Both the position numbers and the translations under genes were made by a program. The notes under the pieces were generated by a model. It was not told the DNA's origin. It saw only the letters and a list, made by a program, of their open reading frames with translations, and made no database searches. This document shows positions 41,709 through 58,078 of a stretch of DNA of 64,000 nt, piece after piece. This DNA comes from Harmothoe impar. Taxonomy: Eukaryota > Annelida > Polychaeta > Phyllodocida > Polynoidae. The first letter of the stretch is position 1. Every line of letters starts with the position of its first letter. The stretch is taken from contig OX381704.1 in NCBI GenBank assembly GCA_947462335.1, positions 45,016,942-45,080,941 on the forward strand, written 5' to 3'.

Positions 41709-42335
41709 TTTTATGTATGTCTCCTCTTTAACCGTTTAAGGGATGCACAATGCCTTGAAGACCACATCCGGAGGTTTTTAATTAGCAATTTCGCTATTGT
41801 AAACAGGTACCTACGTATGTTAACTGACTTCCTATTTAACAGTAACTCCTGTAGAGCTATATTTATTTATCTATTACTTGGTTTAGTTGGGGCCACTCCA
41901 TGAGACCTTATATCTGAAATATCAGTGATTGTGCTGTCCCCAGTGAGAAGCACATGAACTACAGTACCCAATACCCAATGTGACGTCATATTGGGTGACA
42001 ACCAACCCAATGGGGGAACACTCCCTACATGTTCTGTAGTAACTGCATGTATGGGTTAACATCTTTGCTTTATATGGGTGATTGGTGCCAATTGAGGGTG
42101 AGGATGGGGATCAAAACACAGCTGTACTCAGTATGCATACATGCTCTAGGATTCCATTTTATGGTATTCCCTTAGCCCAGTGTGTGGATCAGCCGGAATT
42201 ATGACACAAGGCTAAGACAAGCGGCGAAGGCGCGGGACGGATTATCGGTAATTTTAAAAGTACCTTTTGACGTAGAGACTTGGAAACCCAGCAGTGAACC
42301 TTCGTAAAGGCTCCAACCTTCTTCCTACAGCACAG

Positions 42336-43070
42336 ATGACCACCGAACAAGGCAGGATAACGAGAAATTCGGAAAATAAACAACCACACGTCCAATTGCC
42401 AGACCGGAAGCGACCGCGTAGCCATTCTAAAATGGCGGCCACTGGCACAGATGTCAACAAACAAGCTGACGCACCGCAACCTTTTTTACCCCAGCTATCC
42501 AGTAAGTCGACACCAAATGAAATAATTGCCAAAATAAATGAATTAGACTCAAGGCAAACCGCTCAGGAAGGATTAACATCAAGGTCGCTTGATTTAATCA
42601 ACGCCATAGAAAAAAGAGTGGCGACAAACGAGGGTCAGCTAGGGGAAGCCAAAATCACCTTCGACGATATTGCCACCAAGCTAAGCCAAATCAACATTAA
42701 AACTGATAATATGGGCGCCGCAATAAAGGTGAATTCTGATGACATTGAAGTCTTGAGCGCATCAAATGCAAAACTTCAAGGTGAGAGTGATATTAGCACT
42801 GATAAACTACAAAGACTGGATATCAAAGAGAGACGTAAAGTGCTAATTATTGAAGGAATACCGGAGGACAGGCCTAAAAGCCTCAGGGATATGATTGACC
42901 AGCTACTTAGTGATCTCAAAATGCCCTATGATAACAGTATAGTCGAGTCAGCATATAGAAGAGGTCGCAAGGCAACTCCCCCCCCCCCCCCCGTGGTGGT
43001 GGAGGGGCAGCGTTCAATGGTGGAAACAGAGCACAGACTTTTAAGCCCAGAGCCTGGCAAATTGTGTTAG
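42336..43070 (+). CDS. LINE-A ORF1, N-terminal part (coiled coil and RRM-like)
   Basis: From ATG 42,336, or the later ATG 42,432 in AAAATGGCGGCC that lines up with the LINE-B start. The protein has a Lys/Arg-rich leader, a heptad-like helical segment (IIAKINELDS through VLSASNAKLQ) suggesting a trimeric coiled coil, and the RRM-like start RKVLIIEGIPED. Just after the word RRGRKATPPPP a 15-base C run (42,978-42,992) shifts the frame, and this reading ends at TAG 43,068. By comparison with LINE-B the true ORF continues in the next frame. Role: RNA-binding chaperone of the retrotransposition particle, by analogy with ORF1 proteins of other LINEs. Confidence 0.8.
   Translation: MTTEQGRITRNSENKQPHVQLPDRKRPRSHSKMAATGTDVNKQADAPQPFLPQLSSKSTPNEIIAKINELDSRQTAQEGLTSRSLDLINAIEKRVATNEGQLGEAKITFDDIATKLSQINIKTDNMGAAIKVNSDDIEVLSASNAKLQGESDISTDKLQRLDIKERRKVLIIEGIPEDRPKSLRDMIDQLLSDLKMPYDNSIVESAYRRGRKATPPPPPVVVEGQRSMVETEHRLLSPEPGKLC
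42780..42781 (+). promoter_or_regulatory. Strong 5' splice-site consensus inside LINE-A ORF1
   Basis: CTTCAAG|GTGAGAGT lies in codon phase 1. It could join to the acceptor at 44,336/44,337 (TGTCACAG|G, also phase 1) to fuse the ORF1 N-terminus to ORF2 in frame. This is an inference from motif and phase only. Confidence 0.3.
42978..42992 (+). repeat. C15 run that breaks LINE-A ORF1
   Basis: Fifteen consecutive C bases in the coding region (Pro codons). The number of C bases puts downstream coding sequence out of frame. It may be a real slippage mutation or a sequencing/assembly length error. Confidence 0.75.
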
Positions 43071-43945
43071 TCTTTAGTTCTGCCCACTATAAGTCCATGA
43101 TTTTCACACATATCCAGAACCTAAAGGGACTGGACGAGTGGAAGGGTATCCATTTATCAGACGACATTTCCAATGAAGACAAACTGATTCAAAAGGACCT
43201 GCGAGCACTGCAAGCCTTAGCCAAGTCGAAGAACATAGAGGCTACAGTAAGAGGGACATCCATTATAGTGGCTGGACAGCAGTTCAAGCACACAGAAATC
43301 GGACAGATCCCCTTTGACCTATCGCTGGAACAAGCGAAAATGGTCCCCACCCCTGACGGTTTGGCGTTCCAGAGCAGCCACGCCCCCTTCAGTAACCTCT
43401 TCAAAACAGAAATAAAATTCGAGGGCCAAACCTTCGATTCTACAGAGAGGGCGTTCTGCTCTAAAATGTGTATAATATCAAATCAAATGAGTGTCCATAG
43501 AAGGGTGATGACCGTAAGAACCCCCATGGACGCTATGTTCGCTGCTAAATTGTGTAAAAAAAACCAGGAATGGTTTGACATGGAAGAGGATGTGATGTCC
43601 AGGCTTCAAGAGATCAAGTACTCCAACCCCACCCTCCTCCAACAGCTCATTGATACCAAGGGTAAGCAGTTGTACGAGGCTACTTTAGACACTACATACG
43701 GCTGTGGGTACCACCTTGGTCAGACTGATATGATCAAGATTGAAAACATAACGCAGGGCAACAGACTTGGCGAAATCCTCATGGCGCTGAGGTATAGGCA
43801 CACCAACGAGCCTCCACTACCGACCAAAGAAGAGGCAAGACGTCTTCTACGAGAACGCCAACAAGCCCAGCAGCCTGACACCCCAGACGTGAATCCAGAT
43901 CCAGCCACAGTTCAACAACCTGAAGAGATCCAACCTGATACATAA
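43064..43945 (+). CDS. LINE-A ORF1, C-terminal part with NADAR domain
   Basis: Reads on in a new frame after the C15 run; the start given is only where this frame is clear of the other one, and no own initiation site is proposed. It carries the end of the RRM-like region (NLKGLDEWKGIHLSDDISNE) and then a NADAR/YbiA (DUF1768) domain at about residues 95-245. Visible landmarks are TPDGLAFQSSHAPFSNLF, FDSTERAF with the conserved Glu at residue 128, LYEATLDTTYGCGYHLGQ and GNRLGEILMALRY. The tryptophan usual in the WG motif is Tyr here. The tail is Gln/Pro-rich and short, without the acidic tract of LINE-B. NADAR proteins act on N-glycosidic bonds or ADP-ribosylated guanine; the role in a LINE is unknown. 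Confidence 0.82.
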   Translation: MLVFSSAHYKSMIFTHIQNLKGLDEWKGIHLSDDISNEDKLIQKDLRALQALAKSKNIEATVRGTSIIVAGQQFKHTEIGQIPFDLSLEQAKMVPTPDGLAFQSSHAPFSNLFKTEIKFEGQTFDSTERAFCSKMCIISNQMSVHRRVMTVRTPMDAMFAAKLCKKNQEWFDMEEDVMSRLQEIKYSNPTLLQQLIDTKGKQLYEATLDTTYGCGYHLGQTDMIKIENITQGNRLGEILMALRYRHTNEPPLPTKEEARRLLRERQQAQQPDTPDVNPDPATVQQPEEIQPDT

Positions 43946-44296: not shown

Positions 44297-47176
44297 GTGG
44301 AGTCCATAATTTACCACTGCACATTTATTGTCACAGGTAGTATGAGGGAACTAGGGGTAGCCAAAGGACTAAGATTTTTACACTTAAACGCAAGAAGTTT
44401 AAAAGCTAATTATGCTTCAATTTGTACAGAAATAGTCCAAGCTAATCTAGAGGTCCTAAGTTTTTCAGAGTCGTGGTTGAAATGCGAAGACGACGAATGT
44501 GATTTTCAGTTTATGGGATATACCCGGTACCGGTTAGACAGACAGGTCCTTAAACCCAATGGCGAAATTAAGACTGGTGGTGGTGTATGTATTTATATTA
44601 AACACTATGTTACTCATGATTATAATTTCCTCCAGGATTTATGTGTGTCTGATGAACAGATGGAAATTCAAAACATTCTGATATGTAAGCCTATGATGAA
44701 GCAAATTTTGTTAGTTAATGTGTACCGTCCGCCTGATGGTGATAAACAAACATTCATTAATAATTTTGTCAAGCTCATGTCCAATGTAGAAGGCAGAGAT
44801 GACTATGAGGTTATCGTAATGGGTGATTTCAACTTTAATGTAAAGGAGGACGATGACCTTGTATCCCAGTTGTTAAATAAATTAAAACTACTCGGCTTAT
44901 CACAAGAAATAGATGAATCAACTAGAAAAAATGCCACCTTAGATCTAATATTCACAAACCTAAGGAGAAATTATTTAAAAACAGGAATACTAAATATCTA
45001 CATTTCGGACCATTTTCCTATTTACCTAATAAGAAAAAAAATACATTTCAAAATAGAAACAACCGAGATACAAGGTCGATCTTATATAAGGATGACTGAT
45101 GCACTCTTCAAACAAGAACTTGATGTGTATAATTGGGACTGGTTTAATGAATCAAATGATGTAGAAATTTGTTGGTCTATTTTACGTGATGCTATTATTT
45201 ATATTTTAGATAAACATTGTCCTCTACGCAAATTCACTGTTCCCAAGCATAGAGACCCATGGATGACGCAGGACACATATGAGTTTATAAGGGATAAAAA
45301 TCTCAAAGCCTCTATAGCGAGACAATCTGGTCTCGACATTGATTGGGAAATTGCCGACAAGGCAAAAAATGCTTCCAACAAAAAAGTAGACCGTATGAGA
45401 AAGTCCTATTTTAAGGATTTATTGGTTGAATATGAAAAGGACCACAAGAAATTTTGGAGAATATTAAATAGTTTAATCCCCGGTCAGCAAAATAAAAGGA
45501 AAAATATTTCGTTAGTTGACCAAAATACAGGTACTCAAATACCTGACGAGGGGACCGCAGACTTTATTAACCAATATTTCACCCAGATTGGTCCTGAGCT
45601 TGCTAAAGACTTACATGTACCTTGGCAGCAGTATGATGATAGATCGGTTAACCACATTGAACCTTTTAGTACCAATATTCTCGAAATTTCCAAATTAGCT
45701 CATGAAATAAATGTGAATAAGTCGTCTGCCATAGAAAATATTTCCTCTAAGATTTTGAAAATGGCTTTCATACACATGCCTGATAAACTAGTTAAAATAT
45801 TTAACCTTTCGTTCTCTCAAAACAAGGTACCCTCCTCTTGGAAAATCTCAAAAGTCACCCCTATACCAAAATCTGGAAATTTGAAGTCAGTTAACAACTA
45901 CAGACCAATTTCTTTATTACCCTTGCCCTGTAAACTCCTAGAAAAGGTTGTTCATAATAGAATATATGGTTTCCTTACTCGTGAGAAAATTCTTACTGAA
46001 GTTCAAGGAGGTTTCAGGGCTGGACATAGCACAATAGTCACGGTAGCCAAATTTACTGATGATATTAAAAGAGAATTAAATATTGCCAATAATACAATAG
46101 CTGCTTTTATAGATTTAAGGAAAGCCTTTGACACCGTAGACCACTCTGTTTTGCTTTTAAAAATTGACCATTATGGTATAAGATCTGACAACTACCACTG
46201 GTTCGAGAATTATCTGGAAGGAAGGTTTCAGACGGTCTTTGCTAACAACATGCTTTCTAGTAGGGCTGAGGTGGTCTGCGGTGTCCCCCAAGGATCAATT
46301 TTGGGTCCATTATTATTTTTGTTATATGTAAATGATGTCGTAAAATGTGTAAAAAATTGTAAATTAAAATTGTATGCTGACGATACTGTGATTTACATAG
46401 CTCATCATGATTTTGACCAGGCACAGCTCCTTCTCCAGCAAGATTTAGATTGTTATTTAACCTGGTGCCAGCAAAATAAACTGTCTGTTAACATTACTAA
46501 AACCAAATTAATGATTTTTGCTGCAAGCAAGCGCAAGCTAAATTCTCTTGATGTAAATTTAACTCTAGATAATGAGAAGCTGCAGGTAGTGCCTAGTTAT
46601 AAATACCTCGGTGTGATATTAGATCCCCTCTTGAACTATAACCTTCATTTAAAATATGTTACCAAGACTGTCGCATATAAGACATATAAACTTTGCCTCC
46701 TAAGACCCTTTTTTGACAAAAAAATTGCTATTCAGATTTTTAAAACGACAATTGTCCCTTACTTTGATTATGCGGATATCCTTTTCCTGACAACAGCAGA
46801 AGCCTATTTAAAACCACTCCAGTATGCCCAAAATCACTGTTTGAAAATTTGTTTAAAATACCCGCACCTAACTGATACCGAAATGGTCCATAGAGACGTA
46901 AAGGTTAATATGTTAAGCGATAGAAGACATGCTCACCTTTTGAATTATATGTATGTACGAGCCCATTGCTCAAAATATAGTGACACTAGAATAAGACCTA
47001 CTAGAGCTTTTACAGCACCTATGTGTAGGGTGATCCATGCAAATGGTCTAGCTTATGAAAACAGTGTCTTTGGGGCAACGAGCTGGAATGGCTTGACCAC
47101 CTTACGTAGAAGTGCAGAGACAGTAGAAATATTCAAAAGGGAAACTGAGCTTTGGCTAGTCTCTCAATTGCCGTGA
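44297..47176 (+). CDS. LINE-A ORF2: APE endonuclease and reverse transcriptase, 959 codons
   Basis: The protein nicks target DNA and copies the element RNA (target-primed reverse transcription). The first ATG of the frame is 44,297, but similarity to LINE-B begins only at about 44,337, so ATG 44,342 (MRELG) is the more likely start. Endonuclease motifs: HLNARSL, FSESWL (catalytic Glu, about residue 58), VYRPPDG, MGDFNFN (about 176) and SDHFPI (about 238). RT motifs: NYRPISLLPLPCKLLEKV, AAFIDLRKAFDTVDHS, GVPQGSILGPLLFLLYVND, YADDTV (about 693) and YKYLGVILD. All catalytic residues are present and the frame is uninterrupted, so the copy may be young. No RNase H domain is seen. A splice-acceptor-like TGTCACAG lies directly before the region of similarity. 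Confidence 0.95.
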   Translation: MESIIYHCTFIVTGSMRELGVAKGLRFLHLNARSLKANYASICTEIVQANLEVLSFSESWLKCEDDECDFQFMGYTRYRLDRQVLKPNGEIKTGGGVCIYIKHYVTHDYNFLQDLCVSDEQMEIQNILICKPMMKQILLVNVYRPPDGDKQTFINNFVKLMSNVEGRDDYEVIVMGDFNFNVKEDDDLVSQLLNKLKLLGLSQEIDESTRKNATLDLIFTNLRRNYLKTGILNIYISDHFPIYLIRKKIHFKIETTEIQGRSYIRMTDALFKQELDVYNWDWFNESNDVEICWSILRDAIIYILDKHCPLRKFTVPKHRDPWMTQDTYEFIRDKNLKASIARQSGLDIDWEIADKAKNASNKKVDRMRKSYFKDLLVEYEKDHKKFWRILNSLIPGQQNKRKNISLVDQNTGTQIPDEGTADFINQYFTQIGPELAKDLHVPWQQYDDRSVNHIEPFSTNILEISKLAHEINVNKSSAIENISSKILKMAFIHMPDKLVKIFNLSFSQNKVPSSWKISKVTPIPKSGNLKSVNNYRPISLLPLPCKLLEKVVHNRIYGFLTREKILTEVQGGFRAGHSTIVTVAKFTDDIKRELNIANNTIAAFIDLRKAFDTVDHSVLLLKIDHYGIRSDNYHWFENYLEGRFQTVFANNMLSSRAEVVCGVPQGSILGPLLFLLYVNDVVKCVKNCKLKLYADDTVIYIAHHDFDQAQLLLQQDLDCYLTWCQQNKLSVNITKTKLMIFAASKRKLNSLDVNLTLDNEKLQVVPSYKYLGVILDPLLNYNLHLKYVTKTVAYKTYKLCLLRPFFDKKIAIQIFKTTIVPYFDYADILFLTTAEAYLKPLQYAQNHCLKICLKYPHLTDTEMVHRDVKVNMLSDRRHAHLLNYMYVRAHCSKYSDTRIRPTRAFTAPMCRVIHANGLAYENSVFGATSWNGLTTLRRSAETVEIFKRETELWLVSQLP

Positions 47177-48850: not shown

Positions 48851-50373
48851 TACCCTAGTAGCAAGCACACTGTGGCCCGGACGGGGCCAGACTATGTTTG
48901 CAAGTGTGGCCCGGAGTGGGATAATCGACGGGCTCCCGTCGGTTTAGGGCACTGGGCTTTGGTCTGGCCCAGTGCGGGTTGCCCATGTTGGGCACAGATC
49001 AGGTTTTAGACGGGCTGAAAGTGGGTTCAGATCAGTTTTTGGATGGGTTGAAAGTGGGCTCAGATCAGTTTTTGGACGGGCTAGCTAATTTGGTGCCACA
49101 GCACCGCCTGATAACTATGGGTTTTTAGAATCTATTCAATCATTCCCAATGATTTCTTGTATTTGTTGAACCAGATATCCTAGGTCCTGCTAATCAACCC
49201 AAGGCATAATCATAGTCTTCCTACCCAATAATGGAAGTATCAAGCAGGCCTATTATCATCAGGTTTGAGCCACATGCAGCATGCACGCACGGGTTAGCTC
49301 TCCCAAGTGACAGGACAGACGTTCAGAGCGTTATCTTAATAAGACTTTTAAGACAGTCTGAATAGTCTTAACTTTAGTAGAGGCCGCTTATGTCATTAAA
49401 AATAAATAATATTTTGAAAGTATTACTATTACGACTAGTATGTAATGGGGGGCTCTGCCCCCCAACCCCCGTTTCTTTTTCTTCTTTTTCTTCTTTTTCT
49501 TCTATTAGAGACATCCTGAGTTCCTCTGAGCTGGTTGCTGGCTTGAAATGATTTATTTTTAATGATAAGAGCGGCCCTGGGTAAGACACTGAATTAAGAC
49601 TTTAAGATGTCTTATTAAGATAACGCTCTGAACGTCTGTCCTCTCACTTGGGAGAGCTATCCAGTTTTTGCATGCAGCATAGACAACTGTCTAGGGTGTA
49701 CATTGGCCTTCAAACCCATAGTTCATACCCACATGGAGCATATGAGACTGTGTTAAGCAAATTGTAATGCCAAAGAAATAGTGTCTACAATGGATAGCTG
49801 CTTGGAGAACCTTCTTTTCATCATTTAAATATATATAGTCTACCTTATTTCCAAACTGTGAGAACATCTGTTTATTGTTTCCTATTCTACAGCACTTTAA
49901 CCTTTTCTTGTATTATTGGATGAAATCAATTTCATCGGTCTTTGTTGGAAAACTCTATATTTTGTTTAGTAGTGACATCTGGTGCAACTGATCAGAACCA
50001 GTAGATCAGTTTGCCCTGTCCAAACCCAACCTCAGTCCACATCAGACAGCCCGCTTTGAAACTGATATGAGCCTAAAATGGGGAGCTCGATCGGGGCCAC
50101 ACTTAAGCCCAGCCATCTGCCCAAGGTGAAACCAAAACGGGCAGCCCACTTTGAAACTGATCTGAGCCCAAATCAGGAAGTCCACTTTGAAACTGATCTG
50201 AGCCCAAAACAGGAAGCCCGATTGGGGCCACACTTCAGCCCAGCCATCTGGCCAACATGAAACCAAAACGGGCAGCCCACTTTGAAACTGATCTGAGCCC
50301 AAGTCTGGCAACCCACTTTGAAACTGATCTGAGCCCAAAGCGAATTGGCCCTGTGCGGGCTCGCTACTAGGGT
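48851..50373. mobile_element. 1.5-kb TIR element with subterminal inverted repeats
   Basis: The left end is TACCCTAGTAGCAAGC and the right end GCTCGCTACTAGGGTA, with TA at both outer edges. Inside, the left arm has repeats of GGGCTCAGATCAGTTTTTGG (48,970-49,085). The right arm has their reverse complements, GAAACTGATCTGAGCCCAAA, repeated several times at 50,050-50,340. A second inverted-repeat element (49,296-49,658) is nested inside. No transposase is recognised, so it is non-autonomous. The tip resembles that of the element at 22,109. Confidence 0.75.
49296..49658. mobile_element. Nested 363-bp element with about 50-bp inverted repeats
   Basis: The left arm begins AGCTCTCCCAAGTGACAGGA and continues through GACGTTCAGAGCGTTATCTT. 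The right arm is its reverse complement ending GGAGAGCT, with about one mismatch in 50 bases. The interior has a GGGGGGCTCTGCCCCCC hairpin and CTTCTTTTT repeats. It lies inside the 48,851-50,373 element. Confidence 0.75.
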
Positions 50374-50506: not shown

Positions 50507-50810
50507 AAGGAGTGTACATTTTTTAGTTACAGGGGGTGTGTAAAAAATCCAGACCTTTCCAGTGAGAGGCATAAAAGATTCTGACCCGTCTTGGGGGAGG
50601 GGGGCATAAAAAAAGTATGCTCCTTTTTAGCAAGAACTCCTAGGTGCTACTATAGTTTGGGTAGGGCGGACATTTTGAGATGCCTTCAGCAAGGGGGGGG
50701 GCTGCAAAATATTCCACACACTCTTTAATGGGGATGGGCATAAAATAATTCCGCGCCTCCATGCAAGATTTCACCACCCTCCACCATTATTAATCAATGA
50801 ACACTCCCTA
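50507..50810. mobile_element. MITE of the AGGGAGTGTTCAT family, copy 3
   Basis: The left end AAAGGAGTGTACATTTTTTA and the right end ATCAATGAACACTCCCT match the family, with more divergence than copies 1 and 2. Inside are G-rich blocks with GCATAAAAGATTCTGACC and GGCATAAAATAATTCCGC. LINE-B begins immediately downstream. Confidence 0.65.
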
Positions 50811-51009
50811 TTTTCAAAATCTGAAGTATGAGTTGGGGCAATGGCGGCACAGGGCTAGACGCGGGGGAGACGGGCGAGGGATATTTTCAACAATTCTGAC
50901 GTGAAAACTTGAAGCCAGCGACTACGACTCGCGACAGAGTTGGGCATAAGGTCCATATACAACTACTGACGCAGAATTATTGAAGAATTATCGCCATTTT
51001 GGCCACATT

Positions 51010-52731
51010 ATGGCGAGTGGAAAAAAGAAGGACGACTTGCTGCCGGCTGGCTCGGACATGGACGAGGTCATAAGGGCTGTCAATGCCCTGGGAAGGCGAA
51101 TGACAACGCAGGAAAAAGCCTCAAAAGGTATGTTGGACTCCATAGACACGATTAAAACTACCCTGGGGACGATCCAACAAGGAGCCACAGAAGCCACATC
51201 TGCCATGGAAGCCATTAGAACGTCACTGCAAACCAACACGAACGACATAGCAGGTCTGTCAAAGGCCGCAAACGCGAATGTGACAGCGCTTGACAGAATG
51301 GCGGAGACAGCCATGGCGCAAACTAGAATGCTCACCCGACACAGCGACAGGTTTGAAAAACAAGACAGAGACGCCCAGAGGAGGACTTTAATTATTGAGG
51401 GTCTGAAAGAAATGGTTCCAGATGATTTGATGGTAGTCATAGGAAACCTCTTCAAGGATATCTGTGTTAATTTTGGGACTGAAAAGGTTCTAAGTGTCGA
51501 GCGTACAGGCCCCATATTCAGGCAGCGGCAACCCCGAGCGCCGGGAAACCGACAGGGTGTAAACAACAACAACAATGGCCGCCAGCAGAAAAAACGCCAC
51601 CGTCCGGTAAAGCTGGTCCTGATAGATGACTCCACCAAGCCTGAGATTATGAAGTCGCTCAAACATCTGAAACCCTTGGACGATTGGTTTAACGTGTCTA
51701 TAGGAGACGAGCTGTCAGAGCAGGAGCACAGGGAGTACATGGATCTTCGCTCAATGTTTTTCTTGGCGCGTGATAACAACCTCAATGCCCAACTAAGACA
51801 GCGTATGGTCATCATAGAGAAGAAGCAGTACTACCACTCCCAGCTGAATGCTATGCCCCAGCCCTACCTGACGATGGAAAACGCCACCACAGCAAAAACC
51901 CCCGACGGTATCATGTTCAGATCGGCTCACAACCGTCTGTCCAACCTATTTCCAGTAGACATTCAGGTGGGAGACACAATATTCAATTCAGTAGAACAAG
52001 CCTTTCAGTATGAAAGAGCACGGGAATGTGGATATTATAAAGTGGCGACTACAATTCTGAGTCTTGATGACCCCTTCCAGATCATGGAGCAAGGAAAAAA
52101 GGTCAAAGACACACAAAACTGGGCTAAAAAAGCTGAGTCTAGTCTACTGAAATATAACAGGATCAAGTTTGGCCAGCAGAACCTGATGAGAGATCACCTG
52201 AAGTTCGCCAAAGGTCATCTGTATGAAGCCTCTTTCCACCCTGTGTGGGGGTGTCAACTCCACCTGGGACTGGCTCAGTACTGTGTACAAGGTGAAACCC
52301 CGGGTGCCAACCTATTTGGCAAGATGCTGGAAAAACTCCGTGAAGAGCTCATCCAGGAAGATGACTCTGAAGATGATGAAGAGGGTGATGACGATGACGA
52401 TGGCAAAGATGGTGATGACGATGGTGATGACGATGAAAATCCCACAGAAGGAGAACAGGGTCAAGAAAGCATCAGTGAAGATGAGACAGTAGCAGAAGTG
52501 GTTGAGAGTGAACATGAGGACAATGTCCCAGCACAAGCTGATCCTACACCACAGACCCCTGCGACACCTCCTCCAGCAGTAGCAGATCCACAGCCCCTAC
52601 CTCAACGTGATAAACCAACCAAGACGCGTCCTAACACCAAGGCTCCCAACAAGAAAAAGACTGTCACTACCGACGAGAACCAGCGAGCACTCAGAGATAG
52701 AATCCAGAGATCCCCTGTCACTAACGTATGA
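51010..52731 (+). CDS. LINE-B ORF1: coiled coil, RRM-like domain, NADAR domain, acidic/basic tail
   Basis: 573 residues from ATG 51,010 (ATTATGGCGAGTGG). The N-terminal helix-rich region (about 15-115) has a coiled-coil pattern. An RRM-like domain starts at RRTLIIEGL (about residue 128), with an Asn/Gln-rich loop and HRPVKLVLIDDSTKPEIMKS. The NADAR (YbiA/DUF1768) domain spans about residues 294-445: TPDGIMFRSAHNRLSNLF, FNSVEQAFQYERA with conserved Glu 329, LYEASFHPVWGCQLHLGLA with the WG motif at Trp 413, and LFGKMLEKLRE. The tail is strongly acidic (runs of Asp/Glu about 450-510), then Pro-rich and Lys/Arg-rich. Known NADAR enzymes cleave N-glycosidic bonds (YbiA) or remove ADP-ribose from guanine (DarG1 type). 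The coiled coil plus RRM suggests the usual ORF1 RNA-binding trimer; what NADAR adds is unknown. A phase-1 donor (TCAAAAG|GTATGT) lies at 51,127. Confidence 0.88.
   Translation: MASGKKKDDLLPAGSDMDEVIRAVNALGRRMTTQEKASKGMLDSIDTIKTTLGTIQQGATEATSAMEAIRTSLQTNTNDIAGLSKAANANVTALDRMAETAMAQTRMLTRHSDRFEKQDRDAQRRTLIIEGLKEMVPDDLMVVIGNLFKDICVNFGTEKVLSVERTGPIFRQRQPRAPGNRQGVNNNNNGRQQKKRHRPVKLVLIDDSTKPEIMKSLKHLKPLDDWFNVSIGDELSEQEHREYMDLRSMFFLARDNNLNAQLRQRMVIIEKKQYYHSQLNAMPQPYLTMENATTAKTPDGIMFRSAHNRLSNLFPVDIQVGDTIFNSVEQAFQYERARECGYYKVATTILSLDDPFQIMEQGKKVKDTQNWAKKAESSLLKYNRIKFGQQNLMRDHLKFAKGHLYEASFHPVWGCQLHLGLAQYCVQGETPGANLFGKMLEKLREELIQEDDSEDDEEGDDDDDGKDGDDDGDDDENPTEGEQGQESISEDETVAEVVESEHEDNVPAQADPTPQTPATPPPAVADPQPLPQRDKPTKTRPNTKAPNKKKTVTTDENQRALRDRIQRSPVTNV
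51127..51128 (+). promoter_or_regulatory. Strong 5' splice-site consensus inside LINE-B ORF1
   Basis: TCAAAAG|GTATGT lies in codon phase 1 (Gly codon split after its first base). The acceptor before ORF2 (CTACCACAG|GC, 53,678/53,679) is also phase 1, so splicing would join the ORF1 N-terminus to ORF2 in frame. Confidence 0.3.
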
Positions 52732-53065
52732 CGACATGTAGCAGGCTGATTTGGTATGAAATTACCCTGAACAGTGCATTTTTTACATGAATTTACCCAC
52801 TTCGATTCTAATATAGCAACATACATATACAACTGACTGTCATCACGATACTAGGTCTAACTTATTTATTTTTATAAACTGTTTTTTCACAACTACCTCA
52901 ATATGTAAACTTGAACCTTATTGTACTTACCTGTATTCAAACTGGATCTTATCATTCAATAGATGGGTTACCATTTGGTAAGAAAGTGTGGTATGTGTGT
53001 GTATGTGTGTGTAAAAATACTGCGATCTATGTACTTACCGGTACACACAAAAGGCATCTCAGTTT

Positions 53066-53345
53066 TTAAATAGTTTGTCACTACCCGGTATAAAAAAAAA
53101 AAAAAAAATAAAATGTATTATGCGTGTGCTTTAAACTCTTTAATCAGTGTGCCTACAGGTGCTCGTAATAATGTCTCTTGTCTCTTGTATTTACATTCGA
53201 AGGCAACTTAATTATTAAATAGATTGTCACCACCCGGTACAAAACGTGTATTATGCGTGTGCTCTAAACTTTATAATTGGTGTGCCTACCGGTACTCGTA
53301 ATAATGTCTCTTGCATTTATATTTTTCTACAATTTCTCAATAGAG
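53066..53345 (+). repeat. 149-bp tandem repeat in the LINE-B inter-ORF spacer
   Basis: TTAAATAGTTTGTCACTACC at 53,066 and TTAAATAGATTGTCACCACC at 53,215 begin two units that share CGTAATAATGTCTCTTG. A third, degenerate unit follows (CTACCGGTACTCA near 53,400). The first unit contains a poly-A run. Confidence 0.7.
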
Positions 53346-53678
53346 TCTGTTAACACGTGTATTAAATGTATGCTACACACACTGCCATAAACTAAGTCTA
53401 CCGGTACTCAACATCTTTATATTATTATGTATAAGTATTAAGTAAAGTATCAAAGCGTGACAATCTGGTGTTATTACAATGTGGAGATATCCCTCTGAGC
53501 ATTCTTCTCTTAGTTTATGCCCAGAATCATCACACATGGGAAGCCACAAGTGCAGTAATCCTATGTGGGGGGGAGGGGGGGAGGGGGGGTATTATTTTTT
53601 TGACGTTTTGTCATTTTTTTTCTTTTTTTCAATCGGTCTATACATGTTTTGTGATGCTGATATAAATCTCTACCACAG

Positions 53679-56524
53679 GCGCGGTACCTAACTTTAAAAA
53701 AGGCTTCTCGCTCGTGCATTTAAATGCGCGCAGTATAAGAAATAAAACAACTGGTATTAGAAATGAATTAATGCAAAGTGATATTGACATTGTTTTATTT
53801 TCTGAAACCTGGCTTAATGACTCTGATCTTGATGGAATATATACATATCCTAGATATAATCTTTATAGGTATGATAGAATTAGTCTATATAGGGGTGGTG
53901 GATTATGCGCGTATGTTGATGAGAATATTGCGTGTTCAGTAGATAAGTATAGTCACTTAAATAGGTCTAATGATGATATTGAAATTCAATGGTTATTGTC
54001 AGTAAAGGGAAAATCAAAAAAAGCTCTAGTATGTAACATTTATAGACCGCCCAGTGGTTCATTAGTCGCCTTCTGTGATACTATAAAAGCACTTTTATTA
54101 CAGGTAGATGAGCTCGATAATATGGATGTTTTCTTGATAGGAGATTTCAATGTAAATGCTCTGGTAAATAATAATGATAAGACGCTACTCATTGAGACTA
54201 TGTCCTTGTTTAATCTAACACAACTTATACACGAGATAACAACTACCTCAGGCACAAATACCTGTATTGATTTACTTTTTACAAACTGTGATGAAATAGT
54301 ATCCGCTGGTCCTCTAAATATTCATTTAAGTGATCATTTGCCTATACATGTAATTAGGAAACATCAGCATGTGAAATCTGGTACCCGGTCTTTTACTGGA
54401 CGCTCATATCGAAATTTTGATAAAAACTTGTATCACCAGAGCTTAGAAAATTGTGATTGGAGATTTTTTGATAATTGTGATAATCCTGATGATGCCTGGG
54501 AAGTATACGAGAACATGCTTAAACGCATGTTGGACGTTCAATGTCCGGTTAAAACCTTTAAGGTCAAGGATAAATCTGATCCTTGGATCACACATTACTT
54601 GATTGAGCGTATAACAGATAAAAATAATTTGTTGTCAGATGCTAGAAAGTCCACATCCATTTTAGACTGGCACAGAGCTCGTGACTTGAAAAACACAGTC
54701 AATAATGAAATTGAGGCAGCAAGAGATAAATTCTATAATGATTTAAGTGCTGAATTTATAAATGATTCAAAACGATTTTGGGCTATTTTAAAAGAAATTT
54801 TACCTTGTAATAAAAATAGTTCCAAGACGATAAATCTAGTAGACGATAACGATACAACTGTTTCTCTTGAAAATACTGCCACTTTTATAAATGAGTTTTT
54901 TGCGGGTATAGGCCCTAAACTAGCTGAAAAACATAACTCAGATTGGAATTTCCAAGGCACGGCATGTGATAACACTTTGGCTGATTTTGAATTTTCCGAC
55001 GAAGAAATTATTGACTGTGTAAGCAACTTAGATGTTAGCAAATCGTCTGCTATCCCCTACCTAGCAACATCGGTATTCAGGGATGCTGTGTTAGCAAATC
55101 CCACGAGGTTTATAAAGATTATTAATTTGTGCTTGTCAACAGGTAAAATACCTGATTCATGGAAAATAGCCACGGTCACACCCCTACCTAAGGGAGGTGA
55201 CCAAACCAAGGTCACTAATTATAGGCCAATAAGCCAGCTACCTGTACCTGGGAAATTGCTAGAAAGACTGTTACATAATCATTTGTCTCTTCATTTATCG
55301 ACTAATAATATTTTGACCACACGACAAGGCGGTTATCAAAAAAACAAATCCACTTTAGATTCAGTCAGCACTTTTGTAGATGACGTATTAATAAATAGAA
55401 ACAAAGGTAATTTTTCAATAGCAGCTTTTATAGATATTAAGAAAGCTTTTGACTCAGTAAATCACTTAATCCTTTTAAAAAAATTAGAAAAATATGGAAT
55501 AAAAAATAAAAATTTAAAATTATTAAAAAATTATTTGACAAATAGATTTCAAAGCACGGTAGCCAATAACGTCACCTCTCCTAAAGCAGCCTTGTCGTGT
55601 GGTGTCCCACAAGGGTCTATTTTAGGCCCTTTATTTTTCTTGTTGTTTATAAATGACTGTATTTTGCCGGATGACGCTCATAAAACACTTTTATATGCGG
55701 ATGACTCGGTCCTATACGCTTCAGGTAAAAACATGGCACAGCTGGTGGATATAATAACCCTAGCTCTAGACAAATTTAGTAGATGGTCCTCAGCCAATAA
55801 ACTCACAATTAATGAGTCAAAAACAAAAATCATGACTATTGCTTCAAATAAAATGTTGAAAAAATTGCAAAAGCCACGTATAAAATTGGGGGACACCCTA
55901 TTAAAAAATGTCAACTCGTACAAATATTTAGGGGTACTTCTAGATGAAGAAATGAGCTTTAAATTTCATCTAAAGAATTTAATTAAGAACACTCGGTTCA
56001 AGTCTCTATTGCTCCATAAGGTAAAAAAGCGCATGACAAAAAATGCTCGCCTGAGAGTATACAAGGCTCACGTGACTCCTGTTATTGACTATGCTGACAT
56101 ATTATATGACCAAGCAAATGTGGATTTATTAAGTGAATTACAGCGTGTGCAAAATAAATGTTTAAAGACCTGTATGGACATGCACATATTAACATCCACA
56201 GAAAAGGCCCATTCTTTAGCTGAAATGCCTATGTTAAGTGTAAGGAGGAAATATCATGCCGAGTTGTATGGCTATAAAAGAGCCCAGAAGGCACATTTCA
56301 GGGCTCCAATAAGGAGAGTAACTAGATCTGCTGATGCTCCTATGTTATATTACAGTACTATAAAATGTGCGGCATATGAGGGGTCACCCCAGGTAGTATG
56401 TGCTCGAGCCTGGAATGCCCTAGATACGGATTTGAGGAATCAAGAAAATCCTGAGAAATTTAAATCGCAAGCAAAGCAACGAATGTTAAGCACCATTCCG
56501 CCAAAGCATGTGTATGACCTCTAA
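53679..56524 (+). CDS. LINE-B ORF2: APE endonuclease and reverse transcriptase
   Basis: The frame is open from 53,666. The first conserved motif, VHLNARSI, is at about 53,714, and no ATG precedes it in the open part of the frame. Translation therefore needs a non-AUG start, reinitiation or splicing from the ORF1 exon; I place the start at the acceptor-like CTACCACAG|GC. Endonuclease motifs: FSETWL, IYRPPSG, IGDFNVN (about residue 143 counted from 53,714) and SDHLPIH (about 206). RT motifs: NYRPISQLPVPGKLLERLL, AAFIDIKKAFDSVNH, GVPQGSILGPLFFLLFIND, YADDSV (about 661) and YKYLGVLLD. All catalytic residues are present. The C-terminus ends with a RAWNALDTDLRN segment, like LINE-A. Confidence 0.93.
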
Positions 56525-57082
56525 GTATTTTTTTCTTAATGAAATACAACTCTGTATTAGGATTTATCAATACTAAGTGACGCCAAATTGCCTCATACAA
56601 GATTGTTTATTGCATTAATATTGATCGCTGTGTATACATGGTAGGGACGTAACAACAGCTTGCTGATGTTCCTACCATTCTTTTTTCACTCGTATAGCTG
56701 ATACTCCTATCCATTGTTATCCGCATAAAAATGGAAATATTATTATAAACATTTACCACAAGGAGAGTTCTGTAACTACCGACGAAGAAAACTTGAGTGA
56801 AATAAAGATAATTTGTTCTAAAAAAATGTGTTAGACTGCCATCCCCACTTTACTCCCACATCTTCTTGTACAGACTGAGCATGGCATATACATATGGACC
56901 CTCTGCTTGGTAAGTCAATATAGTAGCACTTTGAGAAGTAAGCATACAATGGTATCTATGCACTGGATAATCTGGACGTGTAGTACTGCAAAGAACCCTT
57001 CAAGGAAAACGAGGTGACATATTTCCGGAATAACCAAGAACCAAAAGAAGGCTGTTGATTTAATACTTGGAATACTCTCAAT

Positions 57083-58078
57083 ATGAAGAGAGTTAAAAAG
57101 CTGTGTAGTACTGCGGACCTTTCTATTTCTGGTTATCTCTCTGGTACAATATCGGGATTGGCGTTTGCTTTGAGTGCAGCCTGTGTTCAAAGGCTTGGTG
57201 ATGTTGTGCCACCCTTCCAACTAAATGCTGCACGATACTTTGCACAAGTTATGATGTCTTTTTGTGTAGCATTATGCACCAAGAAGACATTTAGGATAAA
57301 TCCAATCCAAGTGCCATGGGTGGTGTTGCTAGCTGTATTAAGTGTTTTAGATAATACTTTCTACTTTACTGCAGCTCAGTTTCTGCCTCTGGGAAACTTG
57401 ACCATTACCTACGTAACCTTACTCTACACAGGGACTGTTCTTTTAGCAAGGTTACTCCTGGACAGGGCTATCCATTTGGTACAGGTTGCATTATTTGTGG
57501 TTATACTGATAGGACAAGCCATGATACTTCAACCATGCTCTCCCTTCAACACACAAGGGAATACGACAACAAACACCATATCGCAAACATACAAAGTTGG
57601 TGACATTCACTCTGCAATTGGCTATGCTTTAGTGATTGGATCTGCAACAATGGCAACCTTAAAAGCCTTCATATACAGGATCCAACTGAAGGAGGTTCCG
57701 ACTACGGTTTTGGCACTGTGGGTTGGGCTACTGGGGCTTGTAATGTCACTCCTCGTCATGGTGTACACAGAAAGGCCAGTTTTACTCACCTCAGGACTGC
57801 AGTTTCTTCTTCTAGCAGGTCATGCTATATTAGCTTCTACAAGTAGTATTCTGGTCTCACACACACAACAAGTATTGAGCCCAATTGTCTATGGCATCCT
57901 AATGAACATACAGGAAGTGTTTGGTTTCATTCTTCAGTATTCACTTCCACACTTTCTACTTCCAGGACATAGGAATGTCTTAGAGGGTGTAGGAGCTGTC
58001 ATAGTTATGTTGGGCATCTTTGTGTATGTCTTCATAGATTTCAAAATCAAAAGTGTCATGTCATTAGACAATATGTAA
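57083..58078 (+). CDS. SLC35G/EamA-type membrane transporter, single exon
   Basis: 331 residues, without introns. The protein is a drug/metabolite-transporter-superfamily member with about ten predicted membrane segments in two EamA halves. The first runs from GYLSGTISGLAFALSAACVQ to about residue 145 (VALFVVILIGQAMIL); the second starts at SAIGYALVIGSATMATLKAF and ends FGFILQYSLPHFL...AVIVMLGIFVYVFIDF. The sequence resembles SLC35G1-like solute carriers of animals; substrate is unknown. ATG 57,083 is the first Met, and the frame uses ordinary codons. It begins 257 bp after the end of LINE-B. A single-exon gene beside LINEs could be an old retrocopy, but the frame is intact, and genes of this family are often intron-poor. 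Confidence 0.85.
   Translation: MKRVKKLCSTADLSISGYLSGTISGLAFALSAACVQRLGDVVPPFQLNAARYFAQVMMSFCVALCTKKTFRINPIQVPWVVLLAVLSVLDNTFYFTAAQFLPLGNLTITYVTLLYTGTVLLARLLLDRAIHLVQVALFVVILIGQAMILQPCSPFNTQGNTTTNTISQTYKVGDIHSAIGYALVIGSATMATLKAFIYRIQLKEVPTTVLALWVGLLGLVMSLLVMVYTERPVLLTSGLQFLLLAGHAILASTSSILVSHTQQVLSPIVYGILMNIQEVFGFILQYSLPHFLLPGHRNVLEGVGAVIVMLGIFVYVFIDFKIKSVMSLDNM

Follow-up and report, generated by a model that had tools for sequence, protein, structure and literature searches.

NADAR domains in the ORF1 proteins of related LINE retrotransposons of the annelid Harmothoe impar

The window analysed here is a stretch of 64,000 nucleotides from Harmothoe impar (assembly GCA_947462335.1, contig OX381704.1, positions 45,016,942 to 45,080,941 of the forward strand). 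It contains two LINEs, LINE-A and LINE-B. In the latter, an earlier note made from the sequence alone had recognised an intact element with an uninterrupted ORF1 and, at about residues 294–445 of the protein, a NADAR domain preceded by a coiled coil and an RRM-like domain. Our analysis bore out each of these points: ORF1 is open, an open ORF2 frame with endonuclease and reverse transcriptase lies downstream, and LINE-B has the following layout.

50837..56826, + strand: LINE-B, full-length element of about 5.99 kb, delimited by ends common to independent copies
51010..52731, + strand: ORF1, open frame of 573 aa, with coiled coil, RRM, CTD, NADAR and acidic tail (AlphaFold2 and Foldseek)
51058..51381, + strand: ORF1 coiled coil, residues 17–124, a near-continuous helix (AlphaFold2, modest confidence)
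51385..51852, + strand: RRM-like and CTD-like domains of the L1 ORF1p type, residues 126–281 (Foldseek)
51937..52350, + strand: NADAR domain, residues 310–447 (PF08719)
52360..52728, + strand: acidic, low-complexity tail, residues 451–573 (dN/dS 0.186; pLDDT mostly below 50)
52732..53665, + strand: spacer of about 0.9 kb between ORF1 and ORF2 (ORF listing)
53666..56524, + strand: ORF2 frame, APE-type endonuclease and reverse transcriptase (Pfam); the first listed start is GTG at 53714

LINE-B is an APE-type non-LTR retrotransposon, as seen from the reverse transcriptase and endonuclease in ORF2 and from the ends shared among copies. In Pfam, ORF2 matched RVT_1 with E=1.1e-35 and Exo_endo_phos with E=5.7e-5 and 23.4 bits, slightly below the cut-off of 24.5. 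The element begins with GGCAATGGCGGCACAGGGCTAG and ends with AATTTGTTCTAAAAAAA. We observed the identical 5′ end amid different flanks at four other loci (L009, L011, L012, L018) and the same or nearly the same 3′ end at seven (L009, L010, L011, L013, L014, L016, L020), as would be expected of independent insertions. No clear target-site duplication was seen around the window copy.

The spacer has no + strand frame of 100 aa or more in the ORF listing, and a 67-base stretch within it (window 53114–53313) recurs 133 bases further on (90%). A short tandem array with a 131-base period and smaller ones (50031–50373) lies directly upstream of LINE-B, and a single-frame gene for an EamA-type transporter (57083–58078; PF00892, E=1.6e-13) directly after it. 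As for ribozymes and known RNAs, the region 50700–57000 gave two Rfam matches, both sub-threshold and both within the acidic-tail coding region, and these were rejected. For the 5′ stretches of LINE-B and LINE-A, folding was no stronger than for shuffled sequences.

The NADAR profile PF08719 matched residues 310–447 of the ORF1 protein (E=1.1e-15), scoring 58.8 bits where 35.1 are required. The profile of the riboflavin-intermediate N-glycosidase, TIGR02464, reached E=1.6e-16 and 60.9 bits, below its equivalog cut-off of 73.7, so that the domain is a NADAR and yet the name of a riboflavin enzyme is unwarranted. A phmmer search of the PDB with the single ORF1 sequence returned no NADAR at E up to 1. 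Run at E up to 0.1, a profile of 21 relatives retrieved 8bau (E=1.5e-14) and E. coli YbiA, 2b3w (E=3.2e-5), with no further chain. All 25 members of alignment A1 match PF08719 (E up to 0.1), which rules out a chance similarity. A structure model, which the earlier note had proposed as a check, gave NADAR/YbiA structures and no unrelated fold: the Foldseek search of the ORF1 model at E≤0.001 found human LINE-1 ORF1p and two NADAR/YbiA structures, and the YbiA fold of the domain is thus supported by models and Foldseek alike. Together, Pfam, the relatives' profile against the PDB and Foldseek rule out both chance similarity and an unrelated fold. It should be kept in mind that the model is poor or of low confidence at about residues 402–433, E406 included, so the active-site geometry is tentative.

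The RRM/CTD region was matched by Foldseek to the trimer of human LINE-1 ORF1p (2ykp/2yko; best E 8.1e-5, probability 1.00, for 2ykp), while Pfam gave no family above cut-off for the coiled coil, RRM and CTD part. According to these models, LINE-B ORF1 is predicted to be a type II (L1-type) ORF1 protein with a C-terminal NADAR. It shares with type II proteins (PMC4120745; 2ykp/2yko) the coiled coil, RRM and CTD in the same order, and differs from them in its additional NADAR and acidic tail; PMC4120745, on LINE ORF1 types, does not mention NADAR. Among 5.8 billion proteins we found six relatives in all (P0002–P0007), every one from ENA contigs. In viral contigs searched with profile A2, 150 stretches fitted the pattern and none was confirmed as a relative.

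The 8BAU protein, a NADAR of Phytophthora nicotianae var. parasitica for which hydrolysis of guanine-ADP-ribose has been demonstrated, bonds the distal ribose through E43 and E125 and coordinates the phosphate through K50; the counterparts in the E. coli C7 NADAR are E88, D171 and K95 (PMC11543638). Profile alignment takes E43, K50 and E125 to E329, R336 and E406 of LINE-B, given that, by our own reading of the alignment, positions 45, 52 and 127 of the 8bau chain are these residues at an offset of two.

51994..51996, + strand: E329, equivalent to E43 of 8BAU (E88 in C7), in 34/34 copies
52015..52017, + strand: R336, aligned with K50 of 8BAU (K95 in C7), which coordinates phosphate
52225..52227, + strand: E406, equivalent to E125 of 8BAU, the YbiA-family Glu, in 34/34 copies

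The earlier note had proposed a mutant of Glu-329, and by its alignment with E43 this residue is an active-site Glu. In the 34 open ORF1 copies described below, E329, K386, E406, W413 and H418 are each invariant, and position 336 is Lys in 24 copies and Arg in 10. The 25 sequences of A1 give a similar picture: E329 in all of them, Lys (20) or Arg (5) at position 336, and E406 in 24, the sole exception being the ENA relative P0006 with Ala. E406 also provides the Glu in the last strand, rather than Asp or His, that distinguishes the YbiA subfamily. Both Glu residues are invariant in 13 NADARs drawn from all groups sampled. As regards the Lys, K95 of C7 is reported to be important for efficient hydrolysis, and the K95R protein retained hydrolysis in vitro and failed in cell rescue (PMC11543638).

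A motif H-L-G at residues 418–420 (window 52261–52269) is present in 16/16 sequences of alignment A6 of LINE-A and LINE-B NADARs. It sets these apart from 8BAU and YbiA, and as a whole it is missing from four other LINE loci (L059–L062) and a stand-alone gene (L063), all described below. In comparison with 8BAU, the LINE-A and LINE-B NADARs are also one residue shorter before the W-G pair and do not have the Asp found there (RHDAIWG). Both 8BAU and E. coli YbiA (2B3W), unlike LINE-B, are stand-alone proteins.

When the genome (1.51 Gb, 736 contigs) was searched with LINE-B ORF1 (P0001), at least 78 match rows were obtained, 70 of the 78 without internal stop. For 20 of these rows we took loci of 10 kb, and in 20/20 an ORF2 match, whole or in pieces, lies downstream on the same strand. 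The ORF1 protein of one locus, L009, is identical to that of the window copy. This suggests recent LINE-B activity. By ORF1 identity to the window copy, two subfamilies can be told apart, at about 70–100% and about 40–48%.

For the selection test we used 34 of the 41 loci with ORF1 (the window, L009–L028 and L029–L048), 25 of them belonging to the second subfamily and 9 lying close to the window copy; L009, being identical to the window copy, and L018–L023, in which ORF1 is broken or partial, were left out. Values of dN/dS (Nei-Gojobori, codon bootstrap) were calculated over seven non-overlapping pairs with dS of 0.05–1. The NADAR gave 0.046 (0.030–0.066), near the RRM/CTD (0.031) and far below the tail (0.186), with the coiled coil at 0.070; in these independent pairs the domain has 161.5 synonymous against 31.5 non-synonymous differences. 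In wider sets, where dS is mostly saturated, the tail has the highest dN/dS throughout and the NADAR medians (0.022–0.058) lie above or below the RRM/CTD. Thus, the NADAR of LINE-B is under strong purifying selection. It is worth stressing that such selection is as compatible with catalysis as it is with binding.

The domain turned out to be more widespread than the earlier note had it, as the neighbouring LINE-A carries one too.

42294..43945, + strand: LINE-A ORF1, in two frames (42294–43070 and 43064–43945) around a run of C; NADAR at 43376–43795
44297..47176, + strand: LINE-A ORF2, open, with APE and RT (RVT_1 E=9.3e-38; Exo_endo_phos_2 and Exo_endo_phos above cut-off)

The LINE-A NADAR matches PF08719 with E=1.7e-13 and 51.6 bits. 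The two elements are 28% identical across CTD and NADAR of ORF1 and 37% identical in ORF2. The C-terminal half of LINE-A ORF1 has at least 134 match rows in the genome, ten of which were fetched as matched pieces. In the resulting 11 sequences of the LINE-A clade (LINE-A and 10/10 relatives) both Glu and H-L-G are retained, and the place of the Lys is taken by Met (7) or Leu (4). With the Lys lost from LINE-A and all ten relatives, hydrolase activity is not assured in every clade, and the loss speaks against a single enzyme conserved throughout.

In a search of the genome with PF08719 itself, 150 of 3484 first-look candidates were scored. All 150 lie above the cut-off without internal stops, in open frames of 128 to 1331 aa, and the lowest of them (88.4 bits) scores above both LINE-A (51.6) and LINE-B (58.8) of the window. 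Rows of the three genome searches (LINE-B ORF1, LINE-A C-terminal half, PF08719) may overlap, no formal de-duplication having been applied. From 146 of these rows we chose four loci, L059–L062, for their differing frame length (431, 1153, 1331 and 824 aa). In each there is a NADAR (4/4, E 1.6e-25 to 4.4e-31) with E, K and E at the three active-site places (4/4), and a partial ORF2 akin to the ORF2s of the two window elements follows on the same strand. NADAR-bearing ORF1s are therefore present in six related LINE groups, that is LINE-A, LINE-B and the four sampled loci, and ORF2 identity between the groups is about 24–38%.

Two further observations concern single loci. In L061, a separate frame after the NADAR ORF1 (2367–2999) begins with GDSRxxGL, presumably the start of an SGNH-esterase-like protein, and has no Pfam match. 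On contig C1 (124085523–124087027), two NADAR matches, obtained in the LINE-A and PF08719 searches, lie about 300 bases apart on one strand, as either tandem domains or a nested insertion.

The four best rows of the PF08719 search (150–178 bits) look like ordinary genes by score. Three are clustered on contig C21 (30057793–30084570) and one is single on C19 (3415138–3415587), and they are probably host genes. The single one, L063, encodes a stand-alone NADAR of 174 aa in one frame, so that a free-standing NADAR gene probably belongs to the host itself. In a tree of 13 NADARs the branches are long and 7 of the 10 inner ones are left open. One split, supported at 99/99, puts LINE-A and LINE-B with their relatives and two ENA rows on one side, and the stand-alone gene with the four other LINE loci on the other. 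The shape of the tree is equally compatible with one or with several acquisitions of the domain.

The reverse transcriptases of these LINEs carry the motifs GVPQGSILGPL and YADD/YLG, which we take to be of the Jockey/CR1 group and not of L1/Tx1; the clade is named here provisionally, from these motifs and not from named LINE references. Tx1 belongs to the L1 group. The earlier note knew of no described LINE ORF1 with a NADAR, and this calls for a correction: several Tx1 LINEs of the Pacific oyster (Crassostrea gigas) are reported to have an ORF1 that seems to hold a YbiA-family NADAR (PMC12477816). As a bare fact, a NADAR in a LINE ORF1 is therefore already in print. The oyster elements resemble ours in having such a domain in the ORF1 of an animal LINE and differ in being labelled Tx1, where the RT motifs here speak for the Jockey/CR1 group; the two were compared by description only. 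The same source suggests a role of the retrotransposon NADAR in processing RNA intermediates and describes a Gypsy lineage of Ectocarpus with an N-terminal NADAR in Pol, likewise a retrotransposon with a YbiA-family NADAR, but an LTR element whose domain has almost exclusively bacterial blastp relatives (PMC12477816). That paper was the only one we found on NADAR and transposable elements; most subscription papers and all preprints lay outside the scope of the search, and other descriptions are possible.

Selfish elements in which a NADAR is joined to proteins that handle nucleic acid also include nidoviruses and other RNA viruses (PMC9503650; BFVD matches), where the domain lies within replicase polyproteins and not in the RNA-coating protein of a retrotransposon. 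An enzyme domain in LINE ORF1 has been described before, namely the esterase of type IV ORF1 proteins, which is unrelated to NADAR (PMC4120745). What is new here is the L1-type architecture of ORF1 predicted by structure comparison, the mapping of the active site and the selection test, together with the occurrence of NADAR in six related LINE groups with Jockey/CR1-type RT motifs and their split in the active-site Lys.

What might the domain do for the element? The ORF1p of L1 coats LINE RNA in cis. Our leading reading, held tentatively and at a little less than an even chance, is that ORF1p delivers a hydrolase of guanosine-ADP-ribose to the RNA, cDNA or target strand of the element as a counter-defence. 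With its coiled coil, RRM and CTD, ORF1p would bind the RNA of its own element in cis, and the NADAR would strip the guanosines of this RNA of their ADP-ribose or, alternatively, act on cDNA or the target strand during target-primed reverse transcription. Freed of the mark, the RNA could be translated and copied even where the host ADP-ribosylates nucleic acid that is foreign or damaged, and the element would act as a counter-defence in the manner of a macrodomain- or NADAR-bearing RNA virus or of the antitoxin half of DarTG1. Proteins of the pierisin type exist in clams. Pierisin-1 of the cabbage butterfly is a guanine-specific transferase (PMC11125620, PMC11833690). Guanosine-ADP-ribose in RNA was reversed by every NADAR tested but by none of the macrodomain and ARH-like enzymes tested (PMC11833690), and NADARs act on this adduct in both DNA and RNA (PMC11543638, PMC11833690). 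The NADARs tested in the respective studies were inactive on phosphate-end (PMC11833690) and on uracil ADP-ribose (PMC13036486). For the NADARs of eukaryotic RNA viruses, host macromolecular ADP-ribosylation is favoured as the target (PMC9503650).

The earlier note had likewise suggested that the element reverses ADP-ribosylation. This idea stands in part: the conserved active site, the strength of purifying selection and the activity reported for NADARs are consistent with it, and one related clade without the Lys speaks against it. Catalysis is inferred here from conserved residues, and counter-defence in turn from catalysis. The LINE-A clade, having lost the Lys, may not hydrolyse ADP-ribosyl-guanine, and the window copy itself has Arg at this place, which by analogy with the failed cell rescue of C7 K95R might weaken the hydrolase reading.

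The same two features would fit a NADAR kept as a binding module, for ADP-ribose, the ends of poly-ADP-ribose, a nucleotide or RNP assembly, with no need of hydrolysis; the ORF1p particle might for instance be drawn to PARP-marked nicked chromatin, the start site of target-primed reverse transcription, and a LINE would presumably profit from binding target DNA that is nicked and PARP-active. LINE-A and its ten relatives keep both Glu and H-L-G in spite of the lost Lys, as if an altered role were selected. We nevertheless regard pure binding as unlikely, given that both Glu are invariant in 34 LINE-B copies and 13 NADARs, seemingly beyond what binding would need, with the qualification that P0006 has Ala for the second. 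Quite unlikely, in our estimate, is an active N-glycosidase with another substrate, be it a small (e.g. cyclic) ADP-ribose signal, a nucleotide that is damaged or modified, or an RNA adduct other than on guanine. NADAR action on riboflavin-pathway intermediates, and the low-molecular-weight ADP-ribose targets argued for phage NADARs (both PMC9503650), would be in line with it, as would the H-L-G that is confined to one side of our sample and the changed Lys of LINE-A, which could mean a changed substrate. However, fusion to an RNA-binding protein would point to nucleic acid rather than to a soluble substrate, the source just cited sets phage NADARs apart from those of eukaryotic RNA viruses, and the inactivity on phosphate-end and uracil ADP-ribose mentioned above would speak against it too.

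We give almost no credence to the idea of a hitchhiker NADAR, acquired by capture of a gene from host or virus, useless to the element and intact merely through youth. LINEs do capture sequence, and nothing further was found in its favour. Against it are the dN/dS of the domain, with its large excess of synonymous differences, and the presence of NADAR in six LINE groups with ORF2s so divergent. The selection test rules it out unless the choice of open frames explains the result, and such an artefact is unlikely because the tail evolves faster within the same frames.

A bolder extension of the counter-defence reading, which we consider somewhat doubtful, is that the whole LINE superclade has long had a nucleic-acid de-ADP-ribosylase in its ORF1p because the germ line restricts retrotransposons by guanine ADP-ribosylation of RNA or cDNA. 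In such an animal equivalent of DarTG1-type defence, ORF1p would play the antitoxin, and the LINE-A clade would since have shifted to another target. Nucleic-acid ADP-ribosylation is not known as an anti-retrotransposon defence in animals. The roles of NADARs across eukaryotes, animals included, have been called unclear (PMC11125620). With the NADAR, LINE ORF1 gains a further enzyme module next to the esterase already described, and the difference in the active-site Lys between LINE-A and LINE-B amounts to a natural experiment. The retention of a NADAR by a selfish element, under purifying selection and in several related groups, hints indirectly that an ADP-ribose mark on nucleic acid matters to it.
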